From Prevotellaceae bacterium (GTDB taxonomy: Bacteria; Bacteroidota; Bacteroidia; Bacteroidales; Bacteroidaceae), in the NCBI GenBank assembly GCA_030531085.1, contig JAUNOM010000029.1, forward strand, positions 1 through 32,957: a stretch of 32,957 nt of DNA. Direction: 5' to 3'. The position numbers were made by a program, and so were the translations under genes. Under the pieces are notes generated by a model. That model did not search any database and was not told the origin of the DNA. It saw nothing but the letters and a program-made list of their open reading frames with translations. Of this stretch, positions 59-30,129 are shown piece by piece. The stretch's first letter is position 1; each line of letters opens with the position of its first letter.

Positions 59-102
59 GTAATTTGATAGCTTTTACAGTGTAATCTGATAGCTTTTACG
101 GT
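59..102. repeat. 22-bp-period palindromic array, copy A (2 units)
   Basis: Two adjacent 22-bp units. Their 19-bp cores are GTAATTTGATAGCTTTTAC (59-77) and GTAATCTGATAGCTTTTAC (81-99), with 3-bp spacers agt and ggt, and the start of a degenerate third unit follows (ggtatctc, 103-110). The same half-sites recur in arrays near 17.8 kb and 30.0 kb. The array lies about 100 bp beyond the stop codon of the minus-strand fusion gene, so it could be in that gene's 3' untranslated RNA. The function is unknown. The rest of 1-200 is AT-rich to mixed sequence in which I see no gene. Confidence 0.85.
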
Positions 103-200: not shown

Positions 201-3200
201 CTAATATGCGTTCAATATCTCCGCTCCACGGTAGTAGTGTGTCAGAATGTCATTGTATGCAATGCCCTTTGCGCCCATCACTGCCGCGCCTATCTGGCAT
301 AATCCCACACCGTGTCCCCAGCTGTGTCCGTTGATTATGAACGACAGTGGGAAGCCGTCCGCATCCTTGCCGCGTGCCTTCACGGTGAAGGCGGAGCTGT
401 ACAGGTGTGTTGGTGACAGTGCCTTGCGTATCTCCAGCTCCTTGCCTATGGTGAATGTGCGGTGCTCGCCTACAATCTTCAGCAGGGATATGCGTCCGCT
501 CTTGCCGCGTTCCAGAGGCTCGAGGTTTATGATACGGCCGAAGTCAATCTTCAACTTCCTGTTTAGCAGCTGTGACAGCTCCTGCTGGGTGTATGTAACC
601 ATCCAGTCATGGAAGTCCACTGTTTCCAGATCGTAGTCGTTGAGTACCTCGGAGAGTATCTTGCGGTCCTGCGTGTTGCAGTATGGGTCACTGACAGAGG
701 TGAGGTATGGCTTGGAGATGTTCTCCCAGCAGTACTGGTATTCCTCCGTCACTCCTCCGCAACATTTGGAGAATCGTGCGTCGCATATCTCCCCCTTGTA
801 TGCCAGTACCTGTCCTGTTGTGGCCTTCACGGCCTTCACCACGCATGGATTGGCGGCGTTTGTGATGCCCTGGTACCGCTGACAGTGGTCGTCAGCACAT
901 ACATCGAAGATTGTATGGTCCTCGCGGTCGTACCATCTTATGAGCATATCGTCCTTCTTGACGAATGAGAAGAAGTTGTTTGCGCCCTCGTTCTTCATCT
1001 GCTGTCGGCGCTCCATCTGTGCCAGAAGCCATGAGCGTGATATCACGGCGTGTGCCTTTAGCAGTTCCAGACTTGATGTTGCTGACATCTCGCTTGATAT
1101 GACGCTTTCCAGATAGCGTTCCACGGGCAGCTCGTTTATGGCGCATATCTTGTCGCCTTCAACCACCAGCCGCAGCTTTCCGATGAAGGTCTGTGTCTGT
1201 TTCCGTTCCCAATGGAAGTTGATGCCTATGGTGACATCCTCTATGCTGAATGAGGCGTTGTCGTCAACGGGTCTGAATGTGAGGTCACGGTATTGTGTGC
1301 CCTTCCACACTATGGCCCCCTCCTTGCATGATACCGTCTGCGGGCCGGTTATCTCCTCGCCTTTTGCCTTGTGTATGCCGTTAAGGGTGAAGTGCAGCTC
1401 GCCGGCGCTTATTATCCCAACCTTAACCATGGGCTGCTCGCTGTAGGTGTTCTTCAGGCGGTGTCGGTGCTCCTCCTCCATGTCATCAGGATTGCGCGGT
1501 ATCAGTTTCTCAATGAGTTTCTCGGCCTGTTCAGGAGTGATGGCTACCTCGCGCAGTATGTCCGCGGCTGTCTCCGCTGTCAGCTTGTTGAAGTCTTCCT
1601 GCCGTGGAGTGATGATAAGTCCGGCCATGTCGAGTGCCCCGGGGCTCACTATGACCTGCCTGTCACCCTGCATGGCATAGCAGTCCGGGCGGTGCTTGCG
1701 TCTTGGGAATATGACTGTGATCTGCTCCTCGCCCTGTCTCCAGGCCACAATGTTCATCATCGGCTCCTCGTCCTGTCTGGCATCCGGTGCCTGTACGGGG
1801 CATACTTCCGCCATGGCGTTGTACAGTCTGTTGAACATCTTGCGCTCCACCTCCTTGTGACGGCTGCGTATCATGAATGCGGGCACGATGTAGTCGGTCA
1901 GCAGGTTGATGCCCTCTCCCTCGCCATTGTCTATGACGGGGCGCATGGTCCTCATCATTCTTGCCATCATGGTCTGCACTGGTACGATGCCGGATGTGCC
2001 GGCCTGCAGGTGCAGGTGGTCAGGTGCGGAGGCTCCGCAGCGCGGTCCGTTGTAGAAGACCATCAGTCTTGTGTGCTGATGCAGCAGCTCGTGGATGGTG
2101 TGGAAGTGTCTGTATATTGACTGCGGCTCATGACTGGTAAGTGGAATGGTGAAGTGCTGTGGCAGGATGGGGTAGGGATTGACGAGTATCTCCATCTCAT
2201 ATTTCTCGTTCTTCACTGCCAGTGGCTTGCTTATCTGCTCCTCGGGCCGGTTCTCCTGACACAGGAAGCACTTGCGTTTTGCCAGTGTTGCCTTGTCAAT
2301 GCTGGCTCCTGTTGACACCATGCGTGCCGGATTGAACTGCAGGCGCAGCTCGCCCACCTCCCTTGTCTGCACGTGCTGCAGGTCGGAATAGCGCTGCCTG
2401 GCATCGTCCCATCTCTCTAACTGGCGGCTGAAGAAGCGCTGCAGGCTGTCACCGGTGTAGAATGGCAGCAGTCCCGCGTTCATGCGCTGGCGCGCTTTCA
2501 GCTCGGTGGTGCGCAAACGGTCCTTGTATAGGTTGTTAGCGTTGATGCGCTCTATGCTCAGCGCCGCGTCACTGTTGCCGTTCCATCTGCGGCAGAGGTA
2601 CAGCTCGTCGTAGATGCGCCCTATGCGGAAGCGGCGGCTGAAGGCAAGTCCTATGGCATAGTCCTCACCGTAGCTGGTGTTGGGAAATCCAAGTTGACGC
2701 AGAAGCGGGGTGAAGAATGCGCGCGGCGCTCCGAGACCGTTGATGCGCAGGGCGTTGTTAGGGCCGTTGGTGTCGGTCCATTCACGGTGGTCAATGATGC
2801 CGGGAGGCAGAGTGTTGAGGTCGAAGTCGCACATACGGTATGCGCCTATGACCATTGCCGCCTTCTGATGATAGAAGCAGTCTATGATTCGCTGCAGGGT
2901 GTCGGTGCCGGAATACAGGTCGTCCGAGTCAAGCTGGACGGCAAAGCGTCCGCAACGGTCGTCATTGACGGCCATATTCCAGCATCCGCCTATGCCCAGG
3001 GGCAGCTCGCCGTCCTCATTGTCAGGTATGATGTGTATCAGCCTGCCGCCGTCCTGTGCCGTATTCTCCTCCTGCTGCAACTGCCGGAGGATGGCCGTTG
3101 TGCCGTCAGTGGAGTGGTTGTCAACAACGATTACATTGTAATTGAAGCGCGTTTTCTGTGACAGTGCGCTGCGTACCGCGTCAGCAATGGTCTTCTCCCT

Positions 3201-3920
3201 GTTGAATACAGGTATGACCACTGTGGCCTCCACGGGGAATACCTGCTCGTTGAAGTCCGGTGTCAGCGCGTTGTCAGTGTCAATCCTTGCCCCTATTGCC
3301 TCAAGGTGCTCCGTGGCCACCTGCTCCATCTCTATCTGCATACTGCGGTTGCGCGGATTGACATAGTCAAACTGCTTCTCTCCGCTCTTGCGTGTGTCGA
3401 GTTCCTCCTCTGTGTACAGGTACTCGTTGATGTGGTGCAGTGTTCCGTGGCGCTGCAGGTACAGCCGCAGTGCGTAGATGCCGGCGTATGCCAGGTCTGA
3501 CTTCTGTTCCTTGATAAAGTCCTTGAACATGGAGGTCTTTATGCAGAGCAGCTGTCCGAAGTCGAAATCGTCACGGATGCTGCCCTCCTGATAGTCTATC
3601 AGAGGGTGGTTGTGGCGCTGTCCGCCTGTCATGGAGTAGTGGTCGGCGTAGACCATGGCCGCGTCAGTGTCTATGGCCACACGGATCATGCGCTGCAGTG
3701 AGTTCTTGCCCATTGTGACAGGGGTGGACTTCTGTGACAGCAGTATATAGTCGGCTGTCGCTATGTCCGCTATCTTGCGGAGGGTTGCCATGGCTATGAC
3801 AGGCTCTCCCTCAAGCAGGCACAGCTTCTTCACCACTTTCTCACGGTTCAGCTTCTCTACTGTGGCAGCAAAGAGCCTTGCATTGCTGCATGGAATGAAT
3901 ATGTCTATCTTCTGGAACAT
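201..3920 (-). CDS. Glycosyltransferase family 2 - DUF4922 - SpoIID/LytB fusion protein
   Basis: This 1239-residue protein has three recognisable parts. Residues 1-200 resemble a degraded glycosyltransferase-like segment. Residues 230-470 form a GT2 domain ([12 protein letters not shown] near 235; the DSDD metal and nucleotide-sugar motif at 331-334). Residues 500-800 match DUF4922, a HIT/GalT-superfamily nucleotidyl-transfer fold, with DHLHLQ at 634-639 as the likely active-site motif and a CFLC pair at 551-554. Residues 830-1239 are a SpoIID/LytB domain: Glu944 in SSEM is the probable catalytic acid of a lytic transglycosylase, Cys residues lie near 1008-1013 and 1053-1054, and the [13 protein letters not shown] signature is near the C-terminus. 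No signal peptide is visible, which is odd for a peptidoglycan-cleaving domain. It is last in a minus-strand run, 45 bp after the LolE-like permease. The domain calls are firm; the joint function is unknown. Confidence 0.85.
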
Positions 3921-7385: not shown

Positions 7386-9662
7386 TTACATCTCGTATCC
7401 GCCCATGGAGCCGCCCATGCTGTCTTCTTCCATGGACTGCTGCTCCTGTCTCTTCTTTGCTCCGGCCTGATTGCCGAAGTTCCAGGTAAGTGTGAAGTTC
7501 ACAGTGCGGCCTCCATGCTTGTTCTCCTGATAGCGTTCAAAGGTGTCGCTGCTTGTGTAGTTCTTCCATTTGCGGCTGTTGAGCAGGTCGCGGCAGTTAA
7601 CAGAGAGTATCAGCTTGCGGTTCATGAAGTTCTTCTTTACTCCAAGATCCATGCCGTACGATGATGGTCTGTGTCCCTGTGTTATGACACTGCGTGAGTT
7701 GTAGCGTCCGCTGGCCTGCACACTGATGTCGTATGGCAGTGTCAGTGCGGCTATGATACGGGCGTTCCATGTGAAGTTGTCCTGTGACAGTCCTGTGACG
7801 GTCTGTCCCTCTATCTCGTATGCAAAGTCATCAAGCTTGTAATAGTATGCGTTCACGTTGGTGGTGAGGTCGAGAATCCTTCCAATCTTGCTCTTTCCGG
7901 TTATCTCAATACCCGTAGATATGGACTTTGCCACATTCATCGGTGTACGGTACATCATGCCGTCGCTCTGGCTGCGGTAGTTTATGCGCTGTATCACGTC
8001 ACTGGTCGGACGGTAGTAGCTTGACACGAGTATGGAGTGCATATTCCACTGCTTCAGATAGTTCAGTGAGAAAGAGCTGGAGTATTCCGGTGTCAGTTCC
8101 GGATTACCGAACGATACTATTGAGGCGTCACTCGTATTGCGGAAGTTGTTCAACTCGCCTCCCCATGGTCTGCGCAGTCTTCTGGTATAGTTCAGTTGCA
8201 GCTGCTGGGTTTGCGTAAGCTGATATGACATGAATACGGACGGGAACAACTGGAAATAGTCTTTTTTAAAAGGATTTCCCTTGTCCTGTTCTCCGTGCTC
8301 CTGCTGCCAGTTCAGTGATTCCGTCTCCACGCGCCAGTACTCTCCACGCAGTCCTGCCATTATTCCGAACTTGTCCTTGTTGTATGACAGTGTGGTGTAC
8401 AGTGCGTGAATGTCGTTGTCGTATGTGAAGCGGTTGAAGTACTGCTGGTCCTCTATCAGGTCAATACCGTCCCAGTTCTGCGCCTCGAACGACAGCTGCG
8501 GCGTGTTCTCGTGTGACATGGAGCCGTTATATCCCGCCTCCAGCTTCAGATGGTCAGTCAGTGGGTTCTCATAGTCAATCTTCACCTCCGTGCGGTGGTT
8601 CTTGATGTTAAGCGGCCGCGACTGGTATGACCTTGATGTGGGCAGCGAGAGGTCCATATAGGATATGGAGTCCTGATAGATGTTGTCGTTGTCTGACTTC
8701 CATTGGTTGTGTGATACGACGAAGTCCAGAAAGTGCTTGTCTGCAAAGTTATGGCGATAGTTGAACTCCACATTATACATCGTGCCCGGTCCTCCGGAGT
8801 ATGTGTTCCTTCTCCTTATGCGTTCCAGAACCTCTCCCGTTGCTGTGTATGCACCATAATAATAAGGTGTGGACGAATGGTTCTTGTGCTTGCCGGTGAA
8901 TATCATTCCATTTACGGAGAAGTCGTCCTTGTCTGTGGCGTGCCATGTCAGTCCGGCCCTTGTGAAGAGCATATTGCCCATACGGTCATTCTCTGTGTTG
9001 TGACGCTCGTATGATGTTGGCACACCTGCCGTCAGGTTGTCCTGCCAGCTGTTGTTGTGCCCGGTGTTCTCCATGTGGCGGTAGCCTATGTTGAAGTACG
9101 CGTCGAGTTTTGACGAGTTATAGTTGATGTTGAACGATGAGTTCGCCCCTCCGCGCGTGTTTGCTCCTGCCTGCACAGAACCGTAGTACCCGCTCTTGCG
9201 TTCCTTTTTCAACACAATATTGATGATGCCTGCCGAGCCTTCTGCAGAGAATTTTGCTGAAGGGTTGTCTATTACCTCTATCCTCTCTATACTCTCTGCC
9301 GGCAACTGCTGTAGAATCTGTGCGCGGTTATCGCTTGTCAGTCCGCTTGGTCTTCCGTTGATCCACACTTCTACACTCGAGTTTCCTCTTAGTGACACGT
9401 TTCCGTCGTTGTCCACTTCTACAGACGGTATGCTCTCCAGCACTTCGCTGGCACTTTGTCCGGCGCTTGTTATGAGGCTTGCCACATCAAACTCCTTTCT
9501 GTCCACTTTTAGTTTCATTGTGGCCCGTCTTCCTGTCACCTGTATCTCTCCGAGAGTCTGGTCCGCTATCTTTCCTTCTTCCTTCTTCTTCTGCTGTGCT
9601 GCCGCTGTCATTGCGAGTGTCAGCAGCATGGCTGTGTAGATGGCTCTTATGTGCATCTTCAA
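7386..9662 (-). CDS. Outer membrane beta-barrel protein, TonB-receptor-like
   Basis: This 758-residue protein starts with a clean signal peptide (residues 1-22, ending AAAQ). A plug-like domain (about 35-150) follows, with the typical sequence NVSLRGNSSVEVWINGRPSGL, IERIEVIDNPSAKF and GSAGIINIVLKKE. The rest alternates aromatic-rich strands and ends in a barrel with an unusual Gly/Met/Glu-rich tail (GGSMGGYEM) rather than a terminal Phe. The family, often annotated 'outer membrane beta-barrel protein' in Bacteroidetes, usually carries an N-terminal carboxypeptidase-regulatory-like domain; here the mature protein goes nearly straight into the plug. No SusD partner is next to it, so this is not a classic glycan-import pair. 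The substrate is unknown. Confidence 0.9.
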   Translation of the reverse strand: MKMHIRAIYTAMLLTLAMTAAAQQKKKEEGKIADQTLGEIQVTGRRATMKLKVDRKEFDVASLITSAGQSASEVLESIPSVEVDNDGNVSLRGNSSVEVWINGRPSGLTSDNRAQILQQLPAESIERIEVIDNPSAKFSAEGSAGIINIVLKKERKSGYYGSVQAGANTRGGANSSFNINYNSSKLDAYFNIGYRHMENTGHNNSWQDNLTAGVPTSYERHNTENDRMGNMLFTRAGLTWHATDKDDFSVNGMIFTGKHKNHSSTPYYYGAYTATGEVLERIRRRNTYSGGPGTMYNVEFNYRHNFADKHFLDFVVSHNQWKSDNDNIYQDSISYMDLSLPTSRSYQSRPLNIKNHRTEVKIDYENPLTDHLKLEAGYNGSMSHENTPQLSFEAQNWDGIDLIEDQQYFNRFTYDNDIHALYTTLSYNKDKFGIMAGLRGEYWRVETESLNWQQEHGEQDKGNPFKKDYFQLFPSVFMSYQLTQTQQLQLNYTRRLRRPWGGELNNFRNTSDASIVSFGNPELTPEYSSSFSLNYLKQWNMHSILVSSYYRPTSDVIQRINYRSQSDGMMYRTPMNVAKSISTGIEITGKSKIGRILDLTTNVNAYYYKLDDFAYEIEGQTVTGLSQDNFTWNARIIAALTLPYDISVQASGRYNSRSVITQGHRPSSYGMDLGVKKNFMNRKLILSVNCRDLLNSRKWKNYTSSDTFERYQENKHGGRTVNFTLTWNFGNQAGAKKRQEQQSMEEDSMGGSMGGYEM

Positions 9663-17783: not shown

Positions 17784-17832
17784 TTTTTCTGATGTTCTGA
17801 TTTTGTCGCTGTAAGTATCTGATAACCATGGC

Positions 17833-17937
17833 TTTGTAAAAGCTATCAAATTACCTTGTAATCTCTATCAAATTACACGGTAAAAGCTATCAGATTACTG
17901 GGTAAAAGCTATGCTTTTGCGGCGCTATCTGATAGCA
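17833..17937. repeat. 22-bp-period palindromic array, copy B (4 units plus a partial)
   Basis: The cores are GTAAAAGCTATCAAATTAC (17836-17854), GTAATCTCTATCAAATTAC (17858-17876), GTAAAAGCTATCAGATTAC (17880-17898) and GTAAAAGCTATGCTTTTGC (17902-17920), with 3-bp spacers ctt, acg and tgg. A degenerate last unit with a short perfect palindrome, GCTATCTGATAGC (17924-17936), follows. The array fills most of the gap between the 17783 stop and the 17960 start, ending 22 bp before the flavodoxin/ferredoxin gene. It is made of the same half-sites as copies A and C. The function is unknown. Confidence 0.9.
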
Positions 17938-17959
17938 CTAATTTTTAATATCAAAAACT

Positions 17960-29868: not shown

Positions 29869-29976
29869 CCATATATGCCGGCGGTTGCCAATATGAAGAG
29901 ACGCTTATGGTGGGGCTCATGCTGTCGAAATTTCTATCACTTGTAACGTGCTGATAATCAATAGTAAATGTGTGCC

Positions 29977-30064
29977 GCTGTAAAAGCTATCAAATTACAC
30001 AGTAAAAGCATAGAGATTACACAGTAATTTGATAGCTTTTACTGTGTAATCTCTATGCTTTTGT
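29977..30064. repeat. 22-bp-period palindromic array, copy C (4 units)
   Basis: The four cores are GTAAAAGCTATCAAATTAC (29980-29998), GTAAAAGCATAGAGATTAC (30002-30020), GTAATTTGATAGCTTTTAC (30024-30042) and GTAATCTCTATGCTTTTGT (30046-30064), with spacers aca, aca and tgt. Units 1 and 3 are reverse complements of each other, as nearly are units 2 and 4, so the whole array can fold into a long hairpin (arm 30001-30023 with arm 30043-30064). It lies between the convergent methyltransferase and M6-protease genes and could act as a bidirectional terminator. The remainder of the 261-bp gap (29869-30129) holds nothing else I recognise. Confidence 0.92.
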
Positions 30065-30129
30065 TTTGGTATCATATAGTGTTTAAAATCACACCATATT
30101 CGGTCTGTTTTTTTATGGCTATTGTTGCG

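Follow-up and report, generated by a model that had tools for sequence, protein, structure and literature searches.

Three arrays of 22-bp units

The window (the whole stretch of DNA analysed here, 32,957 nucleotides) carries three tandem arrays of short units, together with decayed units and flanking boxes, at the following positions.

1: start of the contig, 58 bp to the left of array 1
59..99, unstranded: array 1, two full units at 59-77 and 81-99 (from the sequence and a pattern search), made up of GTAATTTG-ATA-GCTTTTAC, agt, GTAATCTG-ATA-GCTTTTAC
201..3920, minus strand: large ORF with a family 2 glycosyltransferase domain, DUF4922 and a SpoIID domain
17810..17829, plus strand: putative variant of flanking box 2, TGTAAGTATCTGATAACCAT, ahead of array 2 (by eye)
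17836..17920, unstranded: array 2, four units (17836-17854, 17858-17876, 17880-17898, 17902-17920), all in the CTAT orientation, the last half-site ending in TTGC
17924..17942, unstranded: decayed fifth unit GCTATCTGATAGCACTAAT, in register with array 2 (by eye)
29942..29964, plus strand: flanking box 2 (head), TGTAACGTGCTGATAATCAATAG, ending 15 bp before array 3
29980..30064, unstranded: array 3, four units (29980-29998, 30002-30020, 30024-30042, 30046-30064) in the orientations + - - +, the last half-site ending in TTGT
30068..30086, unstranded: decayed unit GGTATCATATAGTGTTTAA, in register with array 3 (by eye)

The first-pass annotation of this window had placed ten units at three loci under a single pattern with a strict 22-bp register, and this was borne out. 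The pattern GTAAWHKSWWWSMDWTTAC fits eight of the ten units exactly, the other two being terminal variants with TTGC and TTGT ends (1 and 2 mismatches), and the register inside each array is exactly 22 bp. When up to 3 mismatches were allowed, 12 matches were found in the window, namely the ten array units and two outside, at 8897 and 30373, as compared with 2.67 +/- 1.60 in 100 shuffles (largest 6).

In array 3, unit 3 is the exact reverse complement of unit 1, and unit 4 is nearly that of unit 2 (17 of 19 positions); the second and third spacers, ACA and TGT, are complementary to each other as well. Its box 2 is also found beside other arrays of the same genome, in the same orientation, and the decayed unit that follows it resembles the right edge of other arrays with a head. 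A box-2-like stretch seen by eye to the right of array 1 was dropped, as it runs against the orientation rule of the boxes in this genome.

A phased lattice throughout the genome

The window genome (G000; 2.37 Mb, 81% complete) contains 84 exact units, and none of the reversed control pattern. Taking the surroundings of all 84 matches and extending each array in register, we obtained 45 arrays comprising 185 units, with exactly four units in 30 of the 45. The outcome that the first-pass annotation had named as fatal to its own reading, three loci only and no excess of the pattern, is thus far from what the genome holds. One more tandem pair, made of other words, lies at C5:64167, outside the 45-array set. 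Four contigs of this genome (C8, C12, C24 and C35), as well as the contig of the window (positions 1-58), start within an array or at most 60 bp from one; the arrays probably break short-read assemblies.

In these arrays 8-bp half-sites recur at 11-bp steps in alternating orientation, giving the 22-bp period. The annotation had proposed a grammar of half-sites variously paired around TAT or ATA; the half-sites and the register stand, and the pairing is described by a simpler rule, a directional CTAT core present in 170 of the 185 units, mostly as GTAA-[AAG or TCT]-CTAT-[CAAA, CAGA or GCTT]-TTAC. The best reading of the grammar is a unit with a direction, GTAA-nnn-CTAT-nnnn-TTAC, whose arms avoid self-complementary pairs: AAG and GCTT arms are combined 3 times (16.8 expected), and so are TCT and CAGA arms (10.7 expected). 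Adjacent units follow each other in every combination of orientations (35 +-, 32 --, 27 -+, 25 ++ and 21 undetermined). Among the 30 arrays of four units, neighbouring arms are identical in 6 cases within units as against 30.1 +/- 4.3 in shuffles, and in 15 cases across unit junctions as against 27.4 +/- 4.1; the directional core accounts for part of the deficit within units. Under strict word identity, identical arms within units number 2 of 162 in G000 (expected fraction 0.20), 22 of 165 in G964 (0.29) and 8 of 117 in G963 (0.21), these expectations being given without a computed spread, and 5 of 68 units from the fetched loci of nine other genomes are perfect palindromes, a count with no computed expectation.

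The outer G, T, A and A are kept in 96, 84, 92 and 99% of the 280 internal half-sites, figures that overstate the conservation of the frame since exact units served as the seeds of all arrays. These internal half-sites mostly start with GTAA (219), GCAA (28) or GTGA (13), whereas the 90 terminal ones often have GCAA (26) or ACAA (16) instead. Our reading of what the arrays have in common is a half-site of 8 bp with 3 bp added, once in each helical turn and with alternating orientation.

Distribution among genomes and variation of the words

For the genome surveys we used a more general pattern, GTAA-N11-TTAC-N3 twice in tandem. The search of related genomes for which the annotation had called retrieved tandem units of the same frame in 30 of 299 genomes of the genus, and the arrays are frequent (at least 10 tandem matches) in 15 of the 299 sampled; genomes with one to three matches may carry single-locus repeats. 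At the level of the family, 5 of 281 genomes, from 3 of 30 genera, gave matches, and at that of the phylum 1 of 395, the window genome itself. The same words as in the window genome occur in Prevotellaceae MAG UBA3849, Prevotella sp. Tb.RUG.131 and Prevotella sp. RGIG1502, and also in the MAGs SRR873599_bin.37 and SRR5976183_bin.27; judging from the names of these relatives, the host genus is apparently Prevotella in the GTDB sense. Exact units number 163 in UBA3849 (control 1), 190 in Tb.RUG.131, and 103 and 35 in the two other MAGs (control 0).

Among the matches listed, the inner words vary from genome to genome. The dominant words are AAGC, TCTC and TTTG in G000, and AAGC and TATG in both G963 and G964, for which 30 and 40 stretches were taken from the listed matches, a part of the total. 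The array words are recognisable signatures of a species group. The frame itself also varies. A CATT-N11-AATG frame, which is the reversed control pattern, is present in 9 of the 299 genus genomes and strong in G225 (65) and G184 (31), and as it picked up these arrays the reversed pattern is no true null for the general pattern. Further frames are found in 8 of the 299 genomes (GATT in 1 and its reverse, CTAA, in 7). Two frames occur together in G271 (18 matches to GTAA, 3 to GATT), and at locus L083 a CATT array is adjoined by another palindromic 22-bp array with a sequence of its own (AATGTAGTCGCACTACATT att).

Spread by phages was rejected: the words of the window genome were found in 0 IMG/VR contigs, and the general three-unit pattern in 2, which look unrelated.

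Flanking boxes and longer elements

Some arrays are part of something larger. A head, TGTAAC..GTTGA...TCAATAG, lies beside twelve G000 arrays (at most 5 substitutions); at up to 3 substitutions, all 7 matches in the 201 kb formed by the window and the array surroundings end 15 bp from an array. Elements with such a head span about 145 bp by an estimate made by eye. The consensus of box 2, GTAAC..TTGA...TCA, is kept in a subset of arrays. For comparing three genomes (G000, G964 and G963, in this order below) a different array rule was used, giving 43 arrays in G000. Box 2, in a looser form, occurs within 120 bp of 19 of 43, 20 of 40 and 11 of 30 arrays, and at a control distance in 1 of 36, 3 of 31 and 1 of 25; it is absent at 24 of 43, 20 of 40 and 19 of 30 arrays. 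Its orientation toward the array is uniform in G000 (19 of 19) and mixed in G964 (16 versus 5) and G963 (6 versus 5). When the 200 bp around the arrays were examined, another box, CAAAATAGAG / CTCTCTAAAACG, was found at 10 of 43, 19 of 40 and 11 of 30 arrays (3, 4 and 2 at the control distance). The boxes of different species were matched with one another by eye.

Ten of the 45 G000 arrays lie inside a longer repeat of about 430-470 bp ('type 2'), conserved on both sides of the array and with a terminator-like hairpin at one end. Two copies, inverted on one contig, are identical at 402 of 427 positions (94%) and break off abruptly, with unrelated sequence beyond; a further eight copies, more diverged, align with them over about 430-470 bp. 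At the left end (L018, L027, L033, L047 and L053), the hairpin reads TGTCAG/CTGACA, TGTCAC/GTGACA or TGTAAG/CTTACA, so that by eye its pairing survives the sequence changes; the right end often has a word similar to this hairpin, and related hairpins at both ends were recognised, again by eye. Elements with other ends are found in UBA3849, where 11 loci could be aligned and pairs of copies are 88% identical over 393 bp, 86% over 385, 87% over 341 and 81% over 369, and the CATT-frame arrays at four G225 loci lie within a conserved element of about 400 bp. For a subset of arrays, whole elements, about 340-470 bp long and conserved to the left and to the right, thus stand in unrelated surroundings. 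No target-site duplication was recognised in the 8 element copies inspected (the longest word common to the flanks was 5 bp), nor was a clear terminal inverted repeat or a parent element found.

Since the long element was shown for ten of the 45 arrays, the other G000 arrays may owe their spread or maintenance to something else. Three MAGs (L137:725-2076, L140:1-532 and L129:125-1477) share one array locus, together with its flanks, at about 95% identity, which points also to stable inheritance or to the transfer of larger pieces. At this locus a terminator-like hairpin lies beside the array, and L132 holds a related copy (89%).

Independent expansion at each locus, as in ordinary minisatellites, would account for the tandem register, and some genomes do have a single uniform array (G147, five copies in one place). 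The identical words at 45 arrays, the mixed orientation of the units and the flanking boxes in common make such an origin hardly credible here, and they uphold the earlier claim that ordinary tandem duplication does not give these arrays.

Genes around the arrays

The neighbouring ORFs, called mechanically, place 26 of the 45 G000 arrays between tandem genes, 9 between convergent and 3 between divergent genes, with 7 at contig edges. By the same calls the arrays are intergenic, except one inside an 89-aa ORF and four overlapping the end of an ORF by 4-26 bp. A position at gene ends, as the annotation had suggested, is weakly apparent, the stop codon being nearer in 17 of the 26 tandem-gene arrays; a strong 3'-end bias was rejected. 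No tRNA was found beside the array in a scan of 15 of 42 G000 loci. When 83 neighbouring proteins were compared with Pfam, 163 families were matched, of which none, among the best 25, occurred in more than 3 proteins, and a link with a particular neighbouring gene was rejected. A home-made scan found terminator-like sites ahead of 9 of 33 arrays, in at least 4 of them as the end hairpin of the element itself.

This context also bears on a role of the arrays as targets of a site-specific recombinase, rearranged at the unit centres, for which dRS3 of Neisseria offers a parallel. Outer tetranucleotides conserved around an inside that varies across species (the search pattern itself fixing the outer bases), units in both orientations and a mosaic unit order would all suit such targets. 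No integrase family recurs beside the arrays (among the best 25 of 163 Pfam families), the words of G000 are in no IMG/VR contig, and within G000 the CTAT core is constant in 170 of 185 units; we therefore regard this role as very improbable.

RNA or DNA

The arrays might be transcribed and act as RNA, be it as a 3'-UTR hairpin, a terminator or a structured RNA with pairing between units. The outer units are indeed often reverse complementary, sometimes with their spacers (array 3 of the window, L018, L048), and they match better within than between arrays (p = 0.005 for the whole set of 40). In 20 four-unit arrays the outermost arms agree, as compared with 14.6 +/- 1.9 in shuffles. The weak bias toward gene 3' ends and the terminator-like hairpin with compensating changes at the left end of type 2 elements would also fit. 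However, the signal of the outer units is lost in the 32 arrays that are not of type 2 (p = 0.38), and the inner units match less than expected within arrays. The folding energy of the arrays equals that of unit-permuted and re-oriented controls (mean z -0.14, 27 of 44 below zero), and the left half of an array pairs with its own right half no better than with halves of other arrays (26.50 versus 26.04 of 41, p = 0.25). Spacer complementarity in four-unit arrays gave p = 0.21 for spacers 1 and 3, 0.82 for 1 and 2, and 0.012 for 2 and 3. Stem mismatches on the sense strand, counted in those 20 of the 26 tandem-context arrays that have a well-paired pair of units, were 12 A:C and 8 G:T, that is without a G-U bias. 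Terminator-like sites lie within 4 of 33 arrays and have weak stems, unlike the G+C-rich stem and T run of an intrinsic terminator, and no Rfam family matched the window or ten element loci at the gathering score. The RNA hairpin model was rejected on the permuted folding, the comparison of halves, the G-U count and Rfam, with the outer-unit signal as the exception; the modular RNA hairpin put forward by the annotation is accordingly disfavoured, and an RNA element of any of these kinds appears improbable to us. On balance, reading as duplex DNA is favoured.

The other possibility raised by the annotation, a phased binding array for a dimeric protein, fits the evidence at the DNA level and is possible; no candidate for the DNA-reading protein was found, transposases having been looked for as Y1 genes in the genome and among the array neighbours (the best 25 of 163 Pfam families). 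In its strongest form, the arrays would be the chromosomal binding lattice of a dedicated host protein (a nucleoid, segregation or silencing factor), functional genome-wide, with species words that track the changing specificity of this protein. The narrow array size (four units in 30 of 45), the strict 11/22-bp phasing and the conserved tetranucleotides, a conservation biased upward by the seeding, are what such a lattice would show, as are the concerted word use in each genome, the avoidance of hairpin-forming neighbours and the lack of preference for a gene family. Against it, the absence of the exact pattern from 269 of the 299 genus genomes leaves no room for a general housekeeping site with this frame, and the long conserved flanks and near-identical dispersed 427-bp copies point to the spread of whole elements. 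No such protein was found either, and we consider this form unlikely.

A related reading takes the arrays as genus-wide DNA lattices whose words drift by species in concert with a putative DNA-reading protein; the avoidance of self-complementary neighbours would then be a selected reading rule. Built from combinatorial half-sites, it has a logic comparable to that of the dialects of DNA uptake sequences. We hold it to be distinctly unlikely.

A proposed mosaic element and its known relatives

What has to be explained is a set of 45 arrays on a phased lattice, with genome-specific words, avoided arm pairs and no common neighbouring gene family, some of them within whole dispersed elements. We think it fairly likely that the arrays are the variable core of non-autonomous, interspersed intergenic elements of one genus, which may be called mosaic MITE-like elements. 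They would have been dispersed by copying, through transposition by a putative transposase or through gene conversion, and this copying may have homogenised the word set of each species. The arrays are probably read as DNA by a putative protein; the interpretation of the first-pass annotation is partly supported. One might speculate that a dimeric protein (a transposase, a recombinase or a host architectural protein being candidates) reads the half-site tetranucleotide in duplex DNA, where it is offered once per helical turn in alternating orientation. Perfect short palindromes could have been kept out because they extrude as hairpins. Such arrays would make a clean case for learning how short intergenic repeats of Bacteroidales are dispersed, and by what they are read.

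The annotation had not recognised a named element, and the open-access literature that we searched yielded neither a name nor a description of these arrays. CRISPR arrays, with identical direct repeats and unique spacers of similar length, were set aside in view of the 3-bp spacers, mixed orientation and reused half-sites. In two viral contigs (L146:1010-1090 and L147:574-654), an array with a 22-bp unit, GTTTAC-TTT-GTAAAC, precedes by about 110 bp an ORF that has no Pfam match; downstream, L146 has an SU10-type portal gene. This array, which we label iteron-like, shares the 22-bp period and TTAC-nnn-GTAA palindromes with those described here, and differs as a single array upstream of one gene, with no dispersal seen.

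By their construction, the elements look like the BrickBuilt MITEs of Porphyromonas gingivalis and the BIME and NIME mosaics, and appear to be an unnamed relative in kind of such mini-transposon or mosaic repeats, which provide a precedent. As described in the corresponding part of PMC4596501, BrickBuilt is present in 19 intergenic copies in one genome, consists of a leader, a short tandem array (23-nt direct repeats, 1 to 22.8 copies) and a tail, with some copies lacking leader or tail, and is reported from P. gingivalis and also from P. gulae; that source further mentions 22-nt tandem repeats described earlier in strain W83 of P. gingivalis, for which it gives no locations. A Bacteroidales host, the intergenic position and a tandem array between conserved leader and tail, the latter layout being found in a subset of our arrays, are common to both. 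In contrast to the 23-nt direct repeat of that description, the units here are of 22 bp, composed of two opposed half-sites, in both orientations and usually four per array, and they occur with genome-specific words in many genomes of one genus. The IS5-like terminal inverted repeat of BrickBuilt, GAGACCTTTGCA, was found (at most 2 mismatches, within 350 bp) at 3 of 43, 3 of 40 and 0 of 30 arrays in the three compared genomes, without enrichment over the control (1 of 35, 1 of 26 and 0 of 22).

REP sequences and BIMEs, associated with RAYT, likewise comprise many intergenic palindromic units in mosaics of alternating orientation, and the section on BIMEs in PMC2817692 reports protein binding. 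REPs are defined, in the relevant part of PMC3733652, by a GTAG or CGTC tag at one end of the palindrome, whereas the arrays here lack either tag and keep to a fixed 22-bp lattice. The Y1 transposase (RAYT, PF01797), present in 155 of the 299 genus genomes, was not found in G000 (81% complete) and is missing in 8 of the 15 genomes with at least 10 tandem matches, that is G000 and 7 of the other 14; with the tag and the transposase both lacking, a RAYT link and REP membership were rejected. The dRS3/NIME repeats of Neisseria, according to the part of PMC3898611 devoted to them, are of 20 bp with 6-bp ends, ATTCCC(N8)GGGAAT, combined with RS repeats of 30-160 bp. They resemble our units as short repeats with conserved inverted ends and a free middle in intergenic mosaics, and the difference lies in the uninterrupted 22-bp lattice, which belongs to the arrays here and not to NIMEs as described in that part of the source. 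Membership in BrickBuilt and in REP/BIME thus fails on the features tested, while the statement that these elements work like a MITE with an internal minisatellite stands.
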